Below are positions 1,255-63,980 of a stretch of 64,000 bases of DNA, in pieces. Every line of letters starts with the position of its first letter. Position 1 is the stretch's first letter. Source of the DNA: Mesostigma viride (Eukaryota; Streptophyta; Mesostigmatophyceae; Mesostigmatales; Mesostigmataceae); contig RPFO01000769.1 in assembly GCA_009746045.1 (NCBI GenBank), forward strand, positions 22,501 through 86,500, given 5' to 3'. Below the pieces are notes generated by a model. That model was given only the letters and a program-made list of their open reading frames with translations, did no database searches and was not told the origin of the DNA. The position numbers were made by a program, and so were the translations under genes.

Positions 1255-4200
1255 CTAGAACTCGCCGAAGATCTTCTGTGCCTCGGCCAGCTGCGCGAGC
1301 TCCTCCTTCTTGGGCTTGTCGTCGGCGTCGTCAATGAACTCCTCCTTGGGCCGCTCGTTCTTGCGGGGGGGCGGGATGGGTGGCGGCCGCAGCTTGCGCG
1401 CGGACAGCTCCTCCCAGTTGAGACCGTCGAACCAGGGATGCTCCTTGACGTCGTTGGCGCGGCCGCTCAGGTTGCCCAGGCGCTAAGGGGGGGGGGGGGG
1501 GATTAAGGCAAAGTCAGGTAAGACAGCGGGGATGGCGGGGAGGGGCAGGGGAAATAAGGCAAAGTCAGGTAAGACAGTGGGGTTGGGGTTGGGAGGGAAA
1601 GGGGAAATAAGGAAAAGTCAGGTAAGACAGAGGGGTTGGAGTGGGGGCGGGAAAATAAGGCAAAGTCAGGCAAGACAGAGGGGTGGGGGGCGGGGAAAAA
1701 TTGGCGGCAGTTCATAGCGTTAGCCTATCCTTAGCCAAGTAATCGTTAAGCCTATCGTTAGCCTATCGTAAGCCTATCGTTGGCCACGTCTATCGCCACG
1801 CGAAAGGACCACTCGGGTGTGAGGTGCGGCGGGAGGAGGGGGAATACAGCCAGCGAGGCGAGGTCAGACAGCAGGCGATCAGTACAACAGCAGTGGTGGC
1901 ATTTTAATGTGGCGGCACTTGTTGGTTTATGAAACCAAATGTGGCATGTGTATCATTGCCCATAGGAATGTCTTTGCAAGGCGACCCCCGGGTGAGGCGT
2001 TAGGGGGGGAGCACACGGGGAGGGGATGGGTAACTATAATATTCTTCTAGTTTTATAATGATTAGGGTATTTTTCAACTCATGTGTATTATGAAGTCCAC
2101 TGGGAGACACGCGTACGCCATCAGCCACGGAAGTAGATGATCATTCAGGCGCGGTAGCGCTACGCCAGGCAGCCGAGGCACGGTCGCAGTCGTAAGTTCG
2201 GTGCCTCAACCATATTAGGTGCCTTGGCGGGCTTGCGCCCCGTCACCAATCGCACACCAGGCGCCCCCACGAGTCATACTGTATGTGCCCGTCTAGCCTC
2301 AAACACGTCTAGGTACCTTGGCGGGCTTCCTCTCCATAAGCCGCTGCATGAGGTTGACCACCTCCTTGGTGAGGTATGGGGGGTATTGGACCTGCCGGTG
2401 GGGGGGCAGCCGCAGACACAGAGGGGGGGCACAAGCAAGCACGCAAGTACGTGAGTAAGTAAGCACGCAGGTGGACTAAGCAAGCAAGCAAGAACGCGAT
2501 TAAGCAAGCCAGAAAGCATCCATGTAAGCAAATAAGCAAATGACTGAGCAAGCAAGCAAGCAAGCAGTATGTGACTAAGTAAGCAAGAAAGCAAGAAAGT
2601 GACTAAGTAAGCAAATAAGCAAGTGACTAAGCATGTGACTAAGCAAGCAAGCAAGTCGCTAGATAAGCAAGCAAGCTAGGGAGGCGATCAGAGTGGCGGC
2701 ACCAGGTGCAAGCGTAACTCAAACACTTGACGTCGTGGTATATGATGACCAAAGTAATAGCATGCGCAGCCAGTGTTTGCCATTAGATGGCCGAACTCAA
2801 GGGGAACACCCACCTCACATATGAGGTCCACGACGTCGTTTAGCACGACCGATCCGAGCACAATTCTCACAGCTATAAACACAGAACACCAAAGCACATA
2901 ATACCAACGACTGAATTCCAACGGGCAGCTCACCTCACATGCAGGTTCGATGATGCGGTTCATGAGCATCACCGAGTCCCCCAAACACCGCATTCCCATT
3001 CTAGATAGTAGCATGCTTATTGCTATTATGCTGATTGCTATTACAAGACCCCGTCAACACACGAGTACACACTAGTGCACACACTGGGACGCATGATGCC
3101 CCTCCCTCAAACGTGGGGTTGATGATCCGGCTCATCACGACCGTCGGGTCCTAACACCACATCTCAATTCATTTCTAGATATGCTTGCACAAGACCCCTA
3201 CCGCACAGTAGACCCCACTGCGACGCCTTACATTGTCGTCAGAAAGCAGCAAACGTGAAAACGCTAGCTGCCCAAATCTGAGATTCCGCGGAACACAGAA
3301 AGTAAGAAAGCCTAGAAGCTACCAGCAAGGAATCGAACATAGGACCTTTGGCATGATTTCGCGGCTGTGTGAGTCTCCTGATCCGACGCCTTACGCCCCT
3401 CACCTCAAACGTGGGGTCGACGATGCGGTTCATGACGACCATCGGGTCCTCGGTCGGCTCCCCAAACGGCTGGCGCCCCGTGAGCAGCACGTAGGTCACC
3501 ACGCCCAGCCCCCACCAGTCCATGCCGGTGCCGTAGCCCTTGGCGAGGACGGACTCGGGCGCCACGTACCCGGGCGTGCCGCAGAACGTGTATGTGCGGT
3601 CGATGCCCAGGAGCACCTGTCCACGTTTGGACAGGGCGACCGCGCAATGAAGAGGGAAACGTTAGGGTAGGTCTTGGTATCTCATAACGTCTATCTATAA
3701 GTGCGGTCGATGCCCAGGAGCGCCTATCGGAGGGAGGGGGGTGGAGCCGTAACGAGAGACAAAGACATGAGGCGGTATCTTATATCCATAGTATATATAA
3801 CTTAGGGGGTCTTTAGGGTTATTCTTTTCGGGGTTTAATGTCCTTATGTTGGATGCCACTCTCACCTCCGTAATATAGAAGGGGGTTTATCTTATACTAC
3901 TCTGTAGTATGTAGAAGGGTTTTATCTTATATAAGGGGGGTTACCTTGTAATTATATATAAGGATGAATTGTTTACGTGCTGTCAATGCCGGGCGGCCTC
4001 TGTTGGAGAGGCGTGGCAAGGATGCAATAACATGAAGCACTTGTTACAGGCAGGTTGTAGGGCATGGGGTCAGTACGAGGGCCTATTGCATCCGTGCGCC
4101 TCTCGGGGATGGCCAGGAGCATTAGAGCTACTTGGTAACTGCTAGAGTGATCAAGTCTACCATGTCAGTGGAGTTCGTGCCCAGCCAATCCAACGCCCCC

Positions 4201-7200
4201 AGACCCAGCTCCACAAACCGGGAGAAGCTTCTAGCTTACGAGAACAAGATATTATGAACTGATTAGCTTCAGAGATGCCTGTGCGCCCCACACTTGCAAA
4301 CCCAAAGTCACCCAGCCAAGTCTCTATGAACCTGAAGTTTCTGACCTAATTCCGCAAAATCCTTATAAGCTATAGCTGCCGCCTACCTTTGCAAACCCAA
4401 AGTCCCCCAGCTTGATGAAGCCGTTGCTGTCGAGCATCACATTCTCCGGCTTGAGGTCGCGGTAGACGATGCCTGGCAGCGCAACAAGTACGGAAACCAC
4501 GCCATATCATGCAGCAACCAGCAGCCAAGACGCGTCGGAAGAAAGAGCGCCAGAGATGCACCAAGAAGCACCCAAGGTCCATCGGAAGAAAGTGTGCGAG
4601 GGGGGAACCGAGCAGTCGCCAAGACGGTTTGGAAGAAACACACTTTAGGGGCAGAAGCACGATGTGGTCGCCAAGGAATGGTGGTACAGGATGACAGACT
4701 CGTGAACGGAGAATGGACCAAGCTCCAACGCGCGAGAGAGGGGCACAAATGAAGCACCCACCGATTCACCCTGGCCGTGCAGGTACTGGAATATCAAAAT
4801 CAACACTAATTTGATGTTAACATTAATTGAATTTAATGTTAATATAATAATAATTATTATTATTATCAAGGAGACAACCGGTGCAGGCCAGAAATCAGAA
4901 TACGGACCACGGTAGCGCGAGCCTGCCGTGACCTTATCCGCGTTTTCGAGTCGTGCAGGATGATGGAAATGATTGGAGATGGAAATGTGTAGCCTTGTTC
5001 GTTGAAATTATGGCTCGCCAACGCTAGCATCGACTACTACATTTACTCGGCGCTGGCATGAGTGGTGTGGAGTGATAACCCAAGGTACCGCAGGGCGAGA
5101 AACAAGGGCAAACATATGATCAGCAATCCAAGGGAAGCACACACGCACGCGATCCAGCACGTACCGTGACCATGGAGGTACTCCAGCGCGAGCACGAGCG
5201 AGGCGATGTAGAAACGGCAGACGGGCTCTTTCATGCCCTGCAGCACCTCGGTCGTGGGGGAGATGCAGGGTATCTTTCCCTGCCGGATCGTCTTCACCTC
5301 GGCCGAGCGCACGAGCAGATCCATCAGGTCACCCCCAGGGACGTAGTCCAGCAATAGGTACAGGTACCGCTCGTCCTGCTCTCGGCGCGAGGGGTTGAGG
5401 GGGATCGCCACGTAGCGAGGCAGGGGTGTGACAAAGGCAAACAAACACAAACAACGGAAACATAACTATCTATTATTGTTGCCATTTTACAGATTTAGTG
5501 CTTGGGCATTATTCGACGCTCGGCGTGGCACACAGCAAGCGAGAGCATGTAAGAAAACAGGACCTAAGACGATCCAACGCAGACAACAGGGTCGTATGCT
5601 CCTCCCCGCAAAGTGAAGGGTCCTGTTCACAAAGCCAGGCACCAAACGACCATACTATACATGAGTGTACAGCCAATGTCAACCGACAAGAGAGCGCTAA
5701 CCCCTAAAACCCAAACAGCCCCCCGCACCTGGAACGAGGAGTACTGCCGGATGATGAACGGGTGCGCGGTGATGCGCGTGATTGCCTGCTCGCAGAACAC
5801 GTGCTCCGAGCACGTCATCAGGTCCACCTTCTTCATGCGCTTAAGCGCGTAGTGGCGCCCGGAGCCAATGTCCTTGACCTCCTTGACGACCGAGAACGCG
5901 CCGGTGCCGATCACGCGGATGGTCTGCAGCTGGTCGAGCTTGATCTTCTGATTCTGGGCGGGCCAGCGGCCGGAGAGCTGCGCCATGCGCACGGACACGA
6001 CCTGCTCGCTCTTCTCGCGGGCCATGAGGGCCTGGAGGGGGCCCAGCACCTGCGCGGGGGGGGGAGATCGCCGAGGCAGGCAGCAAATAGGAAACCAGCG
6101 AACAGGGGAGACGTTGGGAGGAGGGGGAAGGGCAGAGGCACGATTCCATTCAATTGGATTAGATCGAAATAAGGTAAATAAAATTGGATTCGATCACGGG
6201 ACAAGGGGCAAGGCAGGATGGGAAGGGGTAAGGGTGGATGGGCTGACAGGCAGAACCGGTAAATTAGATTAGATTGCTTGAGTGACCATGCTTCCCATAA
6301 GTGCTTGTGAGATAATACAGAGGGCCGTCGCTTCGTGTCTCCCCCAAGAAGAACACGCGCCTTGTGAACTAACTTGAAAAGGAAGGGGTCAGGGCGGGCG
6401 GGTAATCAGATTCATCGAATGACATCGTGTCAACAAGGACAGAGGTGAGGGGGGCTAAGGGAGGGGGTGCAAGGCGACCCGGATAAACGAGGCGGGATAG
6501 TATCATAGGCGGGATAGTATCATAGGCGGGATAGTATCATAGGCGCATAGATGGGGCGCACTGGGCGCATGGATGAGGAATATCAGGTGGGTGCAGGCAT
6601 GAGGAGACCATGCTTGGATGTGACGCAGACCAGCCGGCAGTTGCGGCCATATGTAAGGTAGAACATTTACAACTAAAATATCCAGAGGACGACGTGACAT
6701 AGTAGGACAACTAGACAAAGTAAACCCGTCCCCTCCCCTTGGTACAACCAACATCGTGAGGCTATAATATTAGACACTGTTCCTCGCTCTCCCCAGTATC
6801 ATGGAGACATCCCGCTTGATCTTGAGGCACGCCAGCGGGCGGCAGCAACAACAACAACGCCAACCGATCCCAAGGGCATGACGCATCCGTGCCCGCTCTC
6901 ACCTGGATGAAGACATCGCGCTTGAGCGTGAGGCAGACCAGTGGGTGGTTCCCCGCCGCGACCACGCTCGCCGTGCGCACCTCGTCGGTCAGCAGCGCGC
7001 GCTCGCCGAAGAAGTCCGATCGGAACAGGTGGTTCACCTTGCGCGGTGGCTCCTTGCTGCCCTTCTGGGTCACGATGACGACCGCCTCGCCCTCCTTGAC
7101 TGAAGCACGCGAGAACAGGAGTTTGGAGCAGCACGGCAGCAGGCCAGCAAGTGAGACGGGGGAGTGGATGGCAGCGCAAAGCACATGATGTTGACCGCCT

Positions 7201-63909: not shown

Positions 63910-63945
63910 CTGCACGGCAGAGATGTTTTGGTAGTAATGCGAGCA

Positions 63946-63980
63946 TTTGAGGAAGCAGGTGATGAGGCTGGTGCACGCCA
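63946..63980 (-). repeat. Copy of the channel pore-exon 5' edge
   Basis: GAGGAAGCAGGTGATGAGGC then TGGTGCACG at 63950 matches GAGGAAGCAGGTGTTCAGGC then TGCACGG at 63891. On the coding strand it reads SLITCFL against the true SLNTCFL. Confidence 0.8.

Follow-up and report, generated by a model that had tools for sequence, protein, structure and literature searches.

A 64,000-nucleotide stretch of the Mesostigma viride genome (assembly GCA_009746045.1, contig RPFO01000769.1, positions 22,501 to 86,500 of the forward strand; hereafter the window) contains two genes whose introns form the main subject of this analysis. The first, PKG, is a minus-strand kinase gene whose spliced reading combines two cyclic-nucleotide-binding domains with a kinase. 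The second, SEC16, lies on the plus strand with exons 1–9, and part of its protein matches the Pfam model TPR_Sec16 (E 3e-45). The window also includes a sacsin-like gene, the open reading frame (ORF) of which gave one weak match, and, near its end, a partial gene that an earlier reader of the sequence called a channel, a name we retain as that reader's label. The introns of these genes hold worn copies, or echoes, of the edges of adjacent exons, and our analysis confirmed that this exon-edge echo pattern is real in the window. The copies suggest intron growth in this stretch through small, recurring duplications at coding borders.

Both PKG and SEC16 read open when spliced. The spliced PKG protein shows 100% identity over 596 amino acids with the public model Mv12883, labelled jgi/Mesvir1, the best of the 120 matches listed among 2581; the second-best of the same 120, labelled Chlat1, is 76% identical. 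We take the label Mesvir1 to stand for Mesostigma viride and Chlat1 for Chlorokybus. A PDB search with one PKG exon confirmed the kinase and no more. For SEC16 the open reading depends on a single frame slip within a run of G in exon 8 (25000–25060, plus strand), which may be a homopolymer indel of the assembly or the trace of an unseen small intron.

The copies were first spotted by eye and then tested, with edges fixed by the reading frame and, for PKG, also by the public protein. The edge test aligned 45 nucleotides (nt) of exon with the cognate intron, over at most 1 kb, and with 400 equal-length non-cognate pieces drawn from other PKG and SEC16 introns. At 17 of the 33 PKG and SEC16 edges the cognate intron scored above all 400 pieces, where about 0.1 such edges would be expected, and 14 of 32 edges exceeded all 200 dinucleotide shuffles of their cognate introns. 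The excess over other introns and over shuffled sequence anticipated by the original prediction, which was made from the letters alone, is borne out in this window, and 17 of the 18 PKG and SEC16 edges that it listed as copied are significant when PKG is numbered from an exon 1 at 10832–11050. The copy that it assigned to the 3′ edge of SEC16 exon 2 survives in part: the exon side is not echoed (edge test, p 0.88), whereas a second copy of the adjoining intron start (17658–17733, about 75 bases) lies at 17740–17814, 82 bp away, with 80% identity. Both presumed 5′ edges of the channel-labelled gene were echoed as it had stated (p 0.001 each, the window holding just 91 bases of intron for one of them), and the 3′ edge of the channel exon at 63909–63808 was likewise significant. 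In all, the sacsin-like and channel genes added four significant edges among nine, while the 3′ edge of PKG exon 1 gave no echo in the edge test (0/1; p=0.73). Pooled over the splice edges of the four genes, 21 of 43 are echoed; the claim that most boundaries are copied therefore comes down to about half by this test.

Several controls were run alongside. These were low: windows from exon interiors matched neighboring introns in 43 of 623 cases, and of the edges 2 of 28 matched the intron on their wrong side and 1 of 32 matched in antisense. Intron-interior windows outside tandem arrays matched the rest of their own intron in 132 of 974 cases, copy-to-copy matches included, as did 5/16 intron starts and 6/16 intron ends, each taken as 45 nt. 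A blast self-comparison (distance 40–600 nt, at least 26 bits, minisatellites excluded by a hand-made list) gave 30 near pairs versus about 1.3 expected. These comprise 23 that join an exon edge with an intron, 1 within an exon, and 6 confined to introns; among the last, 2 touch a junction, 1 ends 10 nt off one, 2 join two copies of one edge, and 1 is unrelated to any edge. Junction-spanning pairs include 8991/9091, 2203/2296, 18418/18519 and 23035/23175.

The geometry of the copies is as follows. First, they are sense-oriented and abut the edge: with whole exons as queries, 15 of 17 best matches begin within 6 nt of the edge, and the other two (SEC16 exons 4 and 9) fall inside the exon. Second, the exonic part measures 12–47 nt, never exceeding 47 nt in the 23 near pairs. 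Third, the nearest scored copy lies 80–120 nt off at 10 of 17 edges, in agreement with the short spacing originally proposed. Fourth, copying recurs at single edges, e.g., those of PKG exon 8 and SEC16 exons 4, 6 and 7. Two further edges belong to the record: the 3′ edge of PKG exon 2 touches a 55-bp x2 tandem (8582–8692), its exon side not being significant, and the row for the 3′ edge of SEC16 exon 1 in the copy lists is G-rich sequence of low complexity, without significance in the edge test.

Mismatches between copies and exons are spread evenly over the three codon positions (33/231, 21/230 and 34/231; p 0.13), as expected of neutral decay and unlike functional alternative exons or paralogues. 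This bears on whether the echoes could stem from an assembly artefact or a chimera of paralogues, for which the many segmental duplications reported for Mesostigma in the available text of PMC6947507 might speak. The copies do not show the third-position excess expected of functional paralogues, and the window is free of N; moreover, its long satellite arrays are resolved, which makes a short-read chimera unlikely. We give an artefact or chimera hardly any weight.

Copying also reaches borders other than splice junctions. Two of eight coding ends tested were significant. One is the end of the PKG coding sequence, which recurs beyond the stop codon (Table 1); between the stop and this copy there are shorter matches from 18 nt on, with scores of 18–19, about the best control level. 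The other is the first ATG of the SEC16 ORF (an assumed start), where the match is merely a 15-nt exact word 24–39 nt inside. Because the PKG stop region is copied too, we set aside a strictly splice-linked cause, and the earlier idea of a process tied to splice sites alone falls with it: the process is not purely splice-specific. What the copied edges share may be that constrained sequence meets free sequence there.

Our preferred reading, to which we assign a probability of roughly 0.5, is that short-range duplications, often spanning about 100 bp, arise repeatedly where coding sequence meets unconstrained DNA. A different account would have duplication fall uniformly and selection retain the exon-derived part of the copies, for example as decoy splice sites or splicing enhancers, which would then outlive their flanks. 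Selection of this kind would cover both the junction excess and a set of six copies, described below, with a kept exon part and an unrelated flank, and by eye several copies retain the splice consensus. Against it, the codon positions give no sign of constraint, GT or AG has been lost in some close copies (SEC16 exon 7, PKG exon 4), and the stop-codon copy has no splicing role known to us; we regard it as decidedly unlikely.

Uniform tandem duplication of about 100 bp could also be filtered by survivorship alone: exonic duplications would be purged, intronic ones would blur from both sides, and border-crossing ones would stay recognisable because their exon copy is conserved. This account requires no special mechanism, covers copies abutting coding borders, including the stop codon, and sits well with the many intronic minisatellite arrays, within which 282 of 391 intron-interior windows match elsewhere in their own intron. 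We simulated tandem duplication spread evenly over two genes with exons kept by selection, in four uniform settings and 480 runs; three of these settings treated exons as frozen and any duplication at a junction as viable. The window holds 16 junction families of duplications and 11 intron-only ones, with all minisatellites, which enter the family counts, the raw pair counts and the comparison with simulation, counted as intron-only. The simulated mean junction share was 0.30–0.35 in the generous settings and 0.23 in the more realistic one, and none of the 480 runs reached 16/27. With a hot-spot factor of 4 (generous) the share rose to 0.54, and with a factor of 10 (realistic) to 0.64. The exonic reach misfits as well: none of the 23 observed pairs extends at least 48 nt into the exon, versus 41–48% of simulated junction pairs. 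Further, at an interior coverage of 0.24, close to the observed 0.21, a generous uniform run echoed 0.23 of junctions, not 0.50. None of the several uniform settings fits the family share, though raw pair counts with arrays come near. Part of the visibility of the copies is survivorship, since the exon persists as a preserved reference; in this simple two-gene model survivorship would contribute yet would not suffice, and as the sole filter on uniform duplication we consider it an unlikely explanation. The original notion of duplication centred on junctions accordingly keeps its excess of junction families over uniform simulation and cedes part of the visibility to survivorship.

A number of observations weigh against recurrent duplication at borders. 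The evidence base is four genes in one window, and 22 of the 43 splice edges are without any echo. As raw pairs including arrays, junction versus intron-only counts are 28 versus 57, and the generous uniform runs, giving 26.0 versus 81.9 and 5.4 versus 13.2, leave the observed ratio not far above them, a point in favor of uniform duplication; the raw counts show little excess because arrays multiply pairs, and the excess appears when families are counted. The simulations ran without array expansion and with indel rates that were assumed, not measured. Wear with distance is a trend only: over 22 copies, identity and distance have a rank correlation of -0.32 (p 0.15). The assertion that the nearest copy is the most alike stands at the edges for which more than one copy was scored, where no other copy is more alike than the nearest (5/5, ties counted); a monotonic decay is not significant overall. 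The stop-codon copy described above counts against the reading only insofar as a splice-specific cause is meant.

The intron flanks raise a further difficulty. Of the recurrent tandem duplication originally put forward, local copying that recurs at one edge is supported. The tandem form, in which both flanks of the copied unit should be similar and the unit length should equal the spacing, fits the copies with similar intron flanks, 12 of 33 rows of the flank comparison, six of these being one array and the channel junction having been entered one base off. However, among the non-array copies there are six whose exon part is at least 90% identical (PKG exons 7 and 8; SEC16 exons 2, 3 and 7; one exon of the channel gene) but whose flank similarity is at the level of unrelated flanks, although the SEC16 exon 3 copy, tallied here as flankless, retains 10 intron bases. 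Just 11–34% of simulated tandem copies of this kind lack the flank, the cut being a fixed score of 22 in the simulation, whereas the data were judged against unrelated and shuffled flanks. Moreover, SEC16 exons 2 and 7 each have a near copy without the flank and a farther copy that has it. Two options would account for this: that short copies of exon alone are produced, or that the flank changes more quickly than the exonic part. The former would be expected of templated insertions, in which repair of intronic breaks copies a short, nearby stretch of exon edge without its flank, and the short, well-preserved copies of 23–31 aligned bases, 88–115 nt off and with dissimilar flanks, have this form. 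Such insertions do not account for the 15 of 17 best copies that begin within 6 nt of the exon edge, and they leave unexplained both the tandem arrays and those copies whose flanks are similar; we think them improbable as the general source.

Under recurrent border duplication, each event would copy the outermost 12–47 nt of an exon, sometimes with the splice site and intron flank, into the intron, where the copies are indeed found. Splicing presumably stays with the exon-proximal site, such that the copy is tolerated; the public PKG protein skips the introns holding the copies. A tolerated copy would then decay without codon constraint, as the observed mismatches indicate. Were the same edge duplicated again, the older copy would move outward, giving rings; several copies are seen at single edges, and their order is presumed. 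As the exon is kept by selection, edge copies would remain visible longer than intron–intron copies. In the simple model, duplications would have to cross borders roughly 4 to 10 times as often as they fall within introns. Our guess for the source of the border excess is break repair by fill-in or templated end joining nearby. In a bolder form, which we advance tentatively and with more doubt than belief, recurrent duplication would target coding borders in Mesostigma viride, an early-branching streptophyte, with a characteristic reach of about 30–45 nt of exon and 60–90 nt of intron, and such edge growth would be, besides repeat insertion, a main engine of its unusually long introns.

The coordinates of exons, echoes and other features are collected in Table 1. 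The segment at 10832–11050 is likely the true first exon of PKG, and it seems to have been missed in the public model P0002, since the N-terminus of that protein differs from our reading. Besides the array, the scored copy list has three worn copies of the SEC16 exon 4 3′ junction. Among the other features, the methyltransferase ORF adjoins genes with long introns, and the LINE reverse transcriptase had no relative among viral contigs.

Table 1. Exons with their edge echoes, and other features of the window (d, distance of a copy in nt; a slash within a motif marks the splice junction).
Feature	Positions	Strand	Details
PKG exon 1	10832-11050	-	ATG to GC donor (CAG/GCAAGT); begins MGQGASSYG...; read against Chlorokybus-labelled protein P0003
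PKG exon 2 (CNB-A)	8691-9002	-	5′ edge echoed upstream, 9091-9170 and 9304-9320
Echo of PKG exon 2 5′ edge + intron flank	9091-9170	-	74% over 87 bp, 12 nt exonic, d=100
PKG exon 3	8037-8184	-	3′ edge (FYI/GTGCGTG) echoed
Two echoes of PKG exon 3 3′ edge	7495-7552	-	15/16 and 13/14
PKG exon 4	6903-7099	-	5′ and 3′ edges both echoed
Echo of PKG exon 4 5′ edge	7184-7212	-	25/29, d=113, flank dissimilar
Echo of PKG exon 4 3′ edge	6801-6842	-	34/42, d=106
Second echo of PKG exon 4 3′ edge	6599-6633	-	26/35, d=308
PKG exon 7	4387-4472	-	3′ edge echo 4294-4316: 22/23, d=95, flank dissimilar
PKG exon 8	3404-3616	-	5′ and 3′ edges both echoed
Echo of PKG exon 8 5′ edge	3698-3721	-	23/24, d=107, flank dissimilar
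Echo of PKG exon 8 3′ edge	3106-3152	-	41/47, d=298
Second echo of PKG exon 8 3′ edge	2944-2979	-	29/36, d=470
Third echo of PKG exon 8 3′ edge	near 2810	-	by eye only
PKG exon 9	2317-2391	-	3′ edge echo 2203-2234: 85% over 33 bp, 12 nt exonic, d=93
PKG exon 10 to stop codon	1255-1482	-	coding end copied 281-319 nt past stop, 30/38; p 0.001
Intronic tandem, ~53 bp x4	1489-1689		directly before last PKG exon; CAGGTAAG-like word on + strand in most copies
SEC16 exon 2	17482-17658	+	5′ edge echoes 17394-17425 (27/30, flank dissimilar), 17172-17215 (80% over 44, with flank)
SEC16 exon 3	18331-18453	+	3′ edge echo 18519-18564: 83% over 46, 10 intron bases incl. GTAAG, d=101
SEC16 exon 4	19662-19907	+	5′ edge echo 19497-19524 (22/28)
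SEC16 exon 4 3′ edge echoes	19884-20383	+	50-bp array, ten junction copies
More worn echoes of SEC16 exon 4 3′ edge	20424-20456, 20563-20601	+	
SEC16 exon 5	21369-21749	+	3′ edge echo 21799-21829: 84% over 31, d=73
SEC16 exon 6	22531-22658	+	5′ edge echoes from 22431, 22335, 22161, 22066 (d=100, 201, 377, 465): 100-bp repeat and two older copies
SEC16 exon 7	23209-23317	+	5′ edge echo 23035-23101: 84% over 67, with flank
SEC16 exon 7 3′ edge echoes	23402-23429, 23986-24012, 24154-24172	+	27/28, flank dissimilar; 21/27; 17/19, flank similar
SEC16 exon 8	24642-25114	+	3′ edge echo 25182-25255: 72% over 74, d=97
Channel-labelled gene, exon starting at 61959	61931-62070	-	5′ edge echo 62042-62070: 28/29, d=110
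Channel-labelled gene, exon 63909-63808	63808-63970	-	5′ edge echo 63948-63970: 91% over 23
61-bp repeat	32345-33395		990 bp apart, 74% identity
(GTAA)n	33805-34305		~125 copies
C5 cytosine methyltransferase (PF00145)	35798-38977	-	one ORF, 1059 codons, long acidic low-complexity stretch
(TGGGA)n satellite	50408-52617		~441 copies; adjoining (ATTC)n at 50245-50353
LINE-like element	54126-57135	+	reverse transcriptase (PF00078), endonuclease-like frame (by eye)
Nested inverted repeats	57759-59524		arms 248, 169, 96 nt at 91-99%; perhaps a palindromic mobile element

The echoes can be set against several known systems. Introner elements are dispersed, near-identical elements that add intronic DNA to many genes. 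They would likewise enlarge introns at many genes; here, however, the match of an edge is with its own intron, and no non-cognate piece sampled from the other PKG and SEC16 introns reached the cognate score at the 17 edges. Tandem exon duplication, as in mutually exclusive exons, places exon-like copies in the neighboring intron. We rejected this for the echoes, which reach at most 47 nt into the exon (23 pairs) and show no codon-position bias. Closer is a potato RdRp gene, in which, as the available part of PMC4974935 describes it, a duplication across an intron–exon boundary copied the splice signals, made a new intron and left a small formerly exonic piece within an intron; an 83-bp tandem duplication inside an intron is also described there. 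Unlike that case as presented in the same text, the copies here lie in existing introns, at many edges, at some repeatedly, and with varied wear. The stwintrons of Lipomyces resemble the echoes in edge duplication: the 5′ donor is duplicated at the exon edge, for which the available part of PMC7138796 proposes fill-in repair of a staggered break. Those donor duplications are of 4–7 nt (PMC7138796, same part), whereas here the spacing is about 100 nt and both 5′ and 3′ edges are involved. We found no description of recurrent exon-edge copies in the open-licence PMC literature. The kind of event, junction-spanning duplication, is thus known; new here are its occurrence at many edges, its repetition and its set geometry. 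Overall, the interpretation offered in the original prediction is partly supported.

Mesostigma introns average 1142 bp, a length that the available text of PMC6947507 links to repetitive elements occupying 30.1% of intron space. Edge copies would be a further source of intron sequence, one that repeat finders would probably miss, the individual copies being short and worn and each seemingly confined to one gene. Should the pattern be true genome-wide, it would document how introns grew step by step, furnish decoy splice sites and provide a natural test of the choice that splicing makes between sites resembling one another. One could then also test if duplications arise preferentially at coding borders, as mutational hot spots, or only stay visible there.

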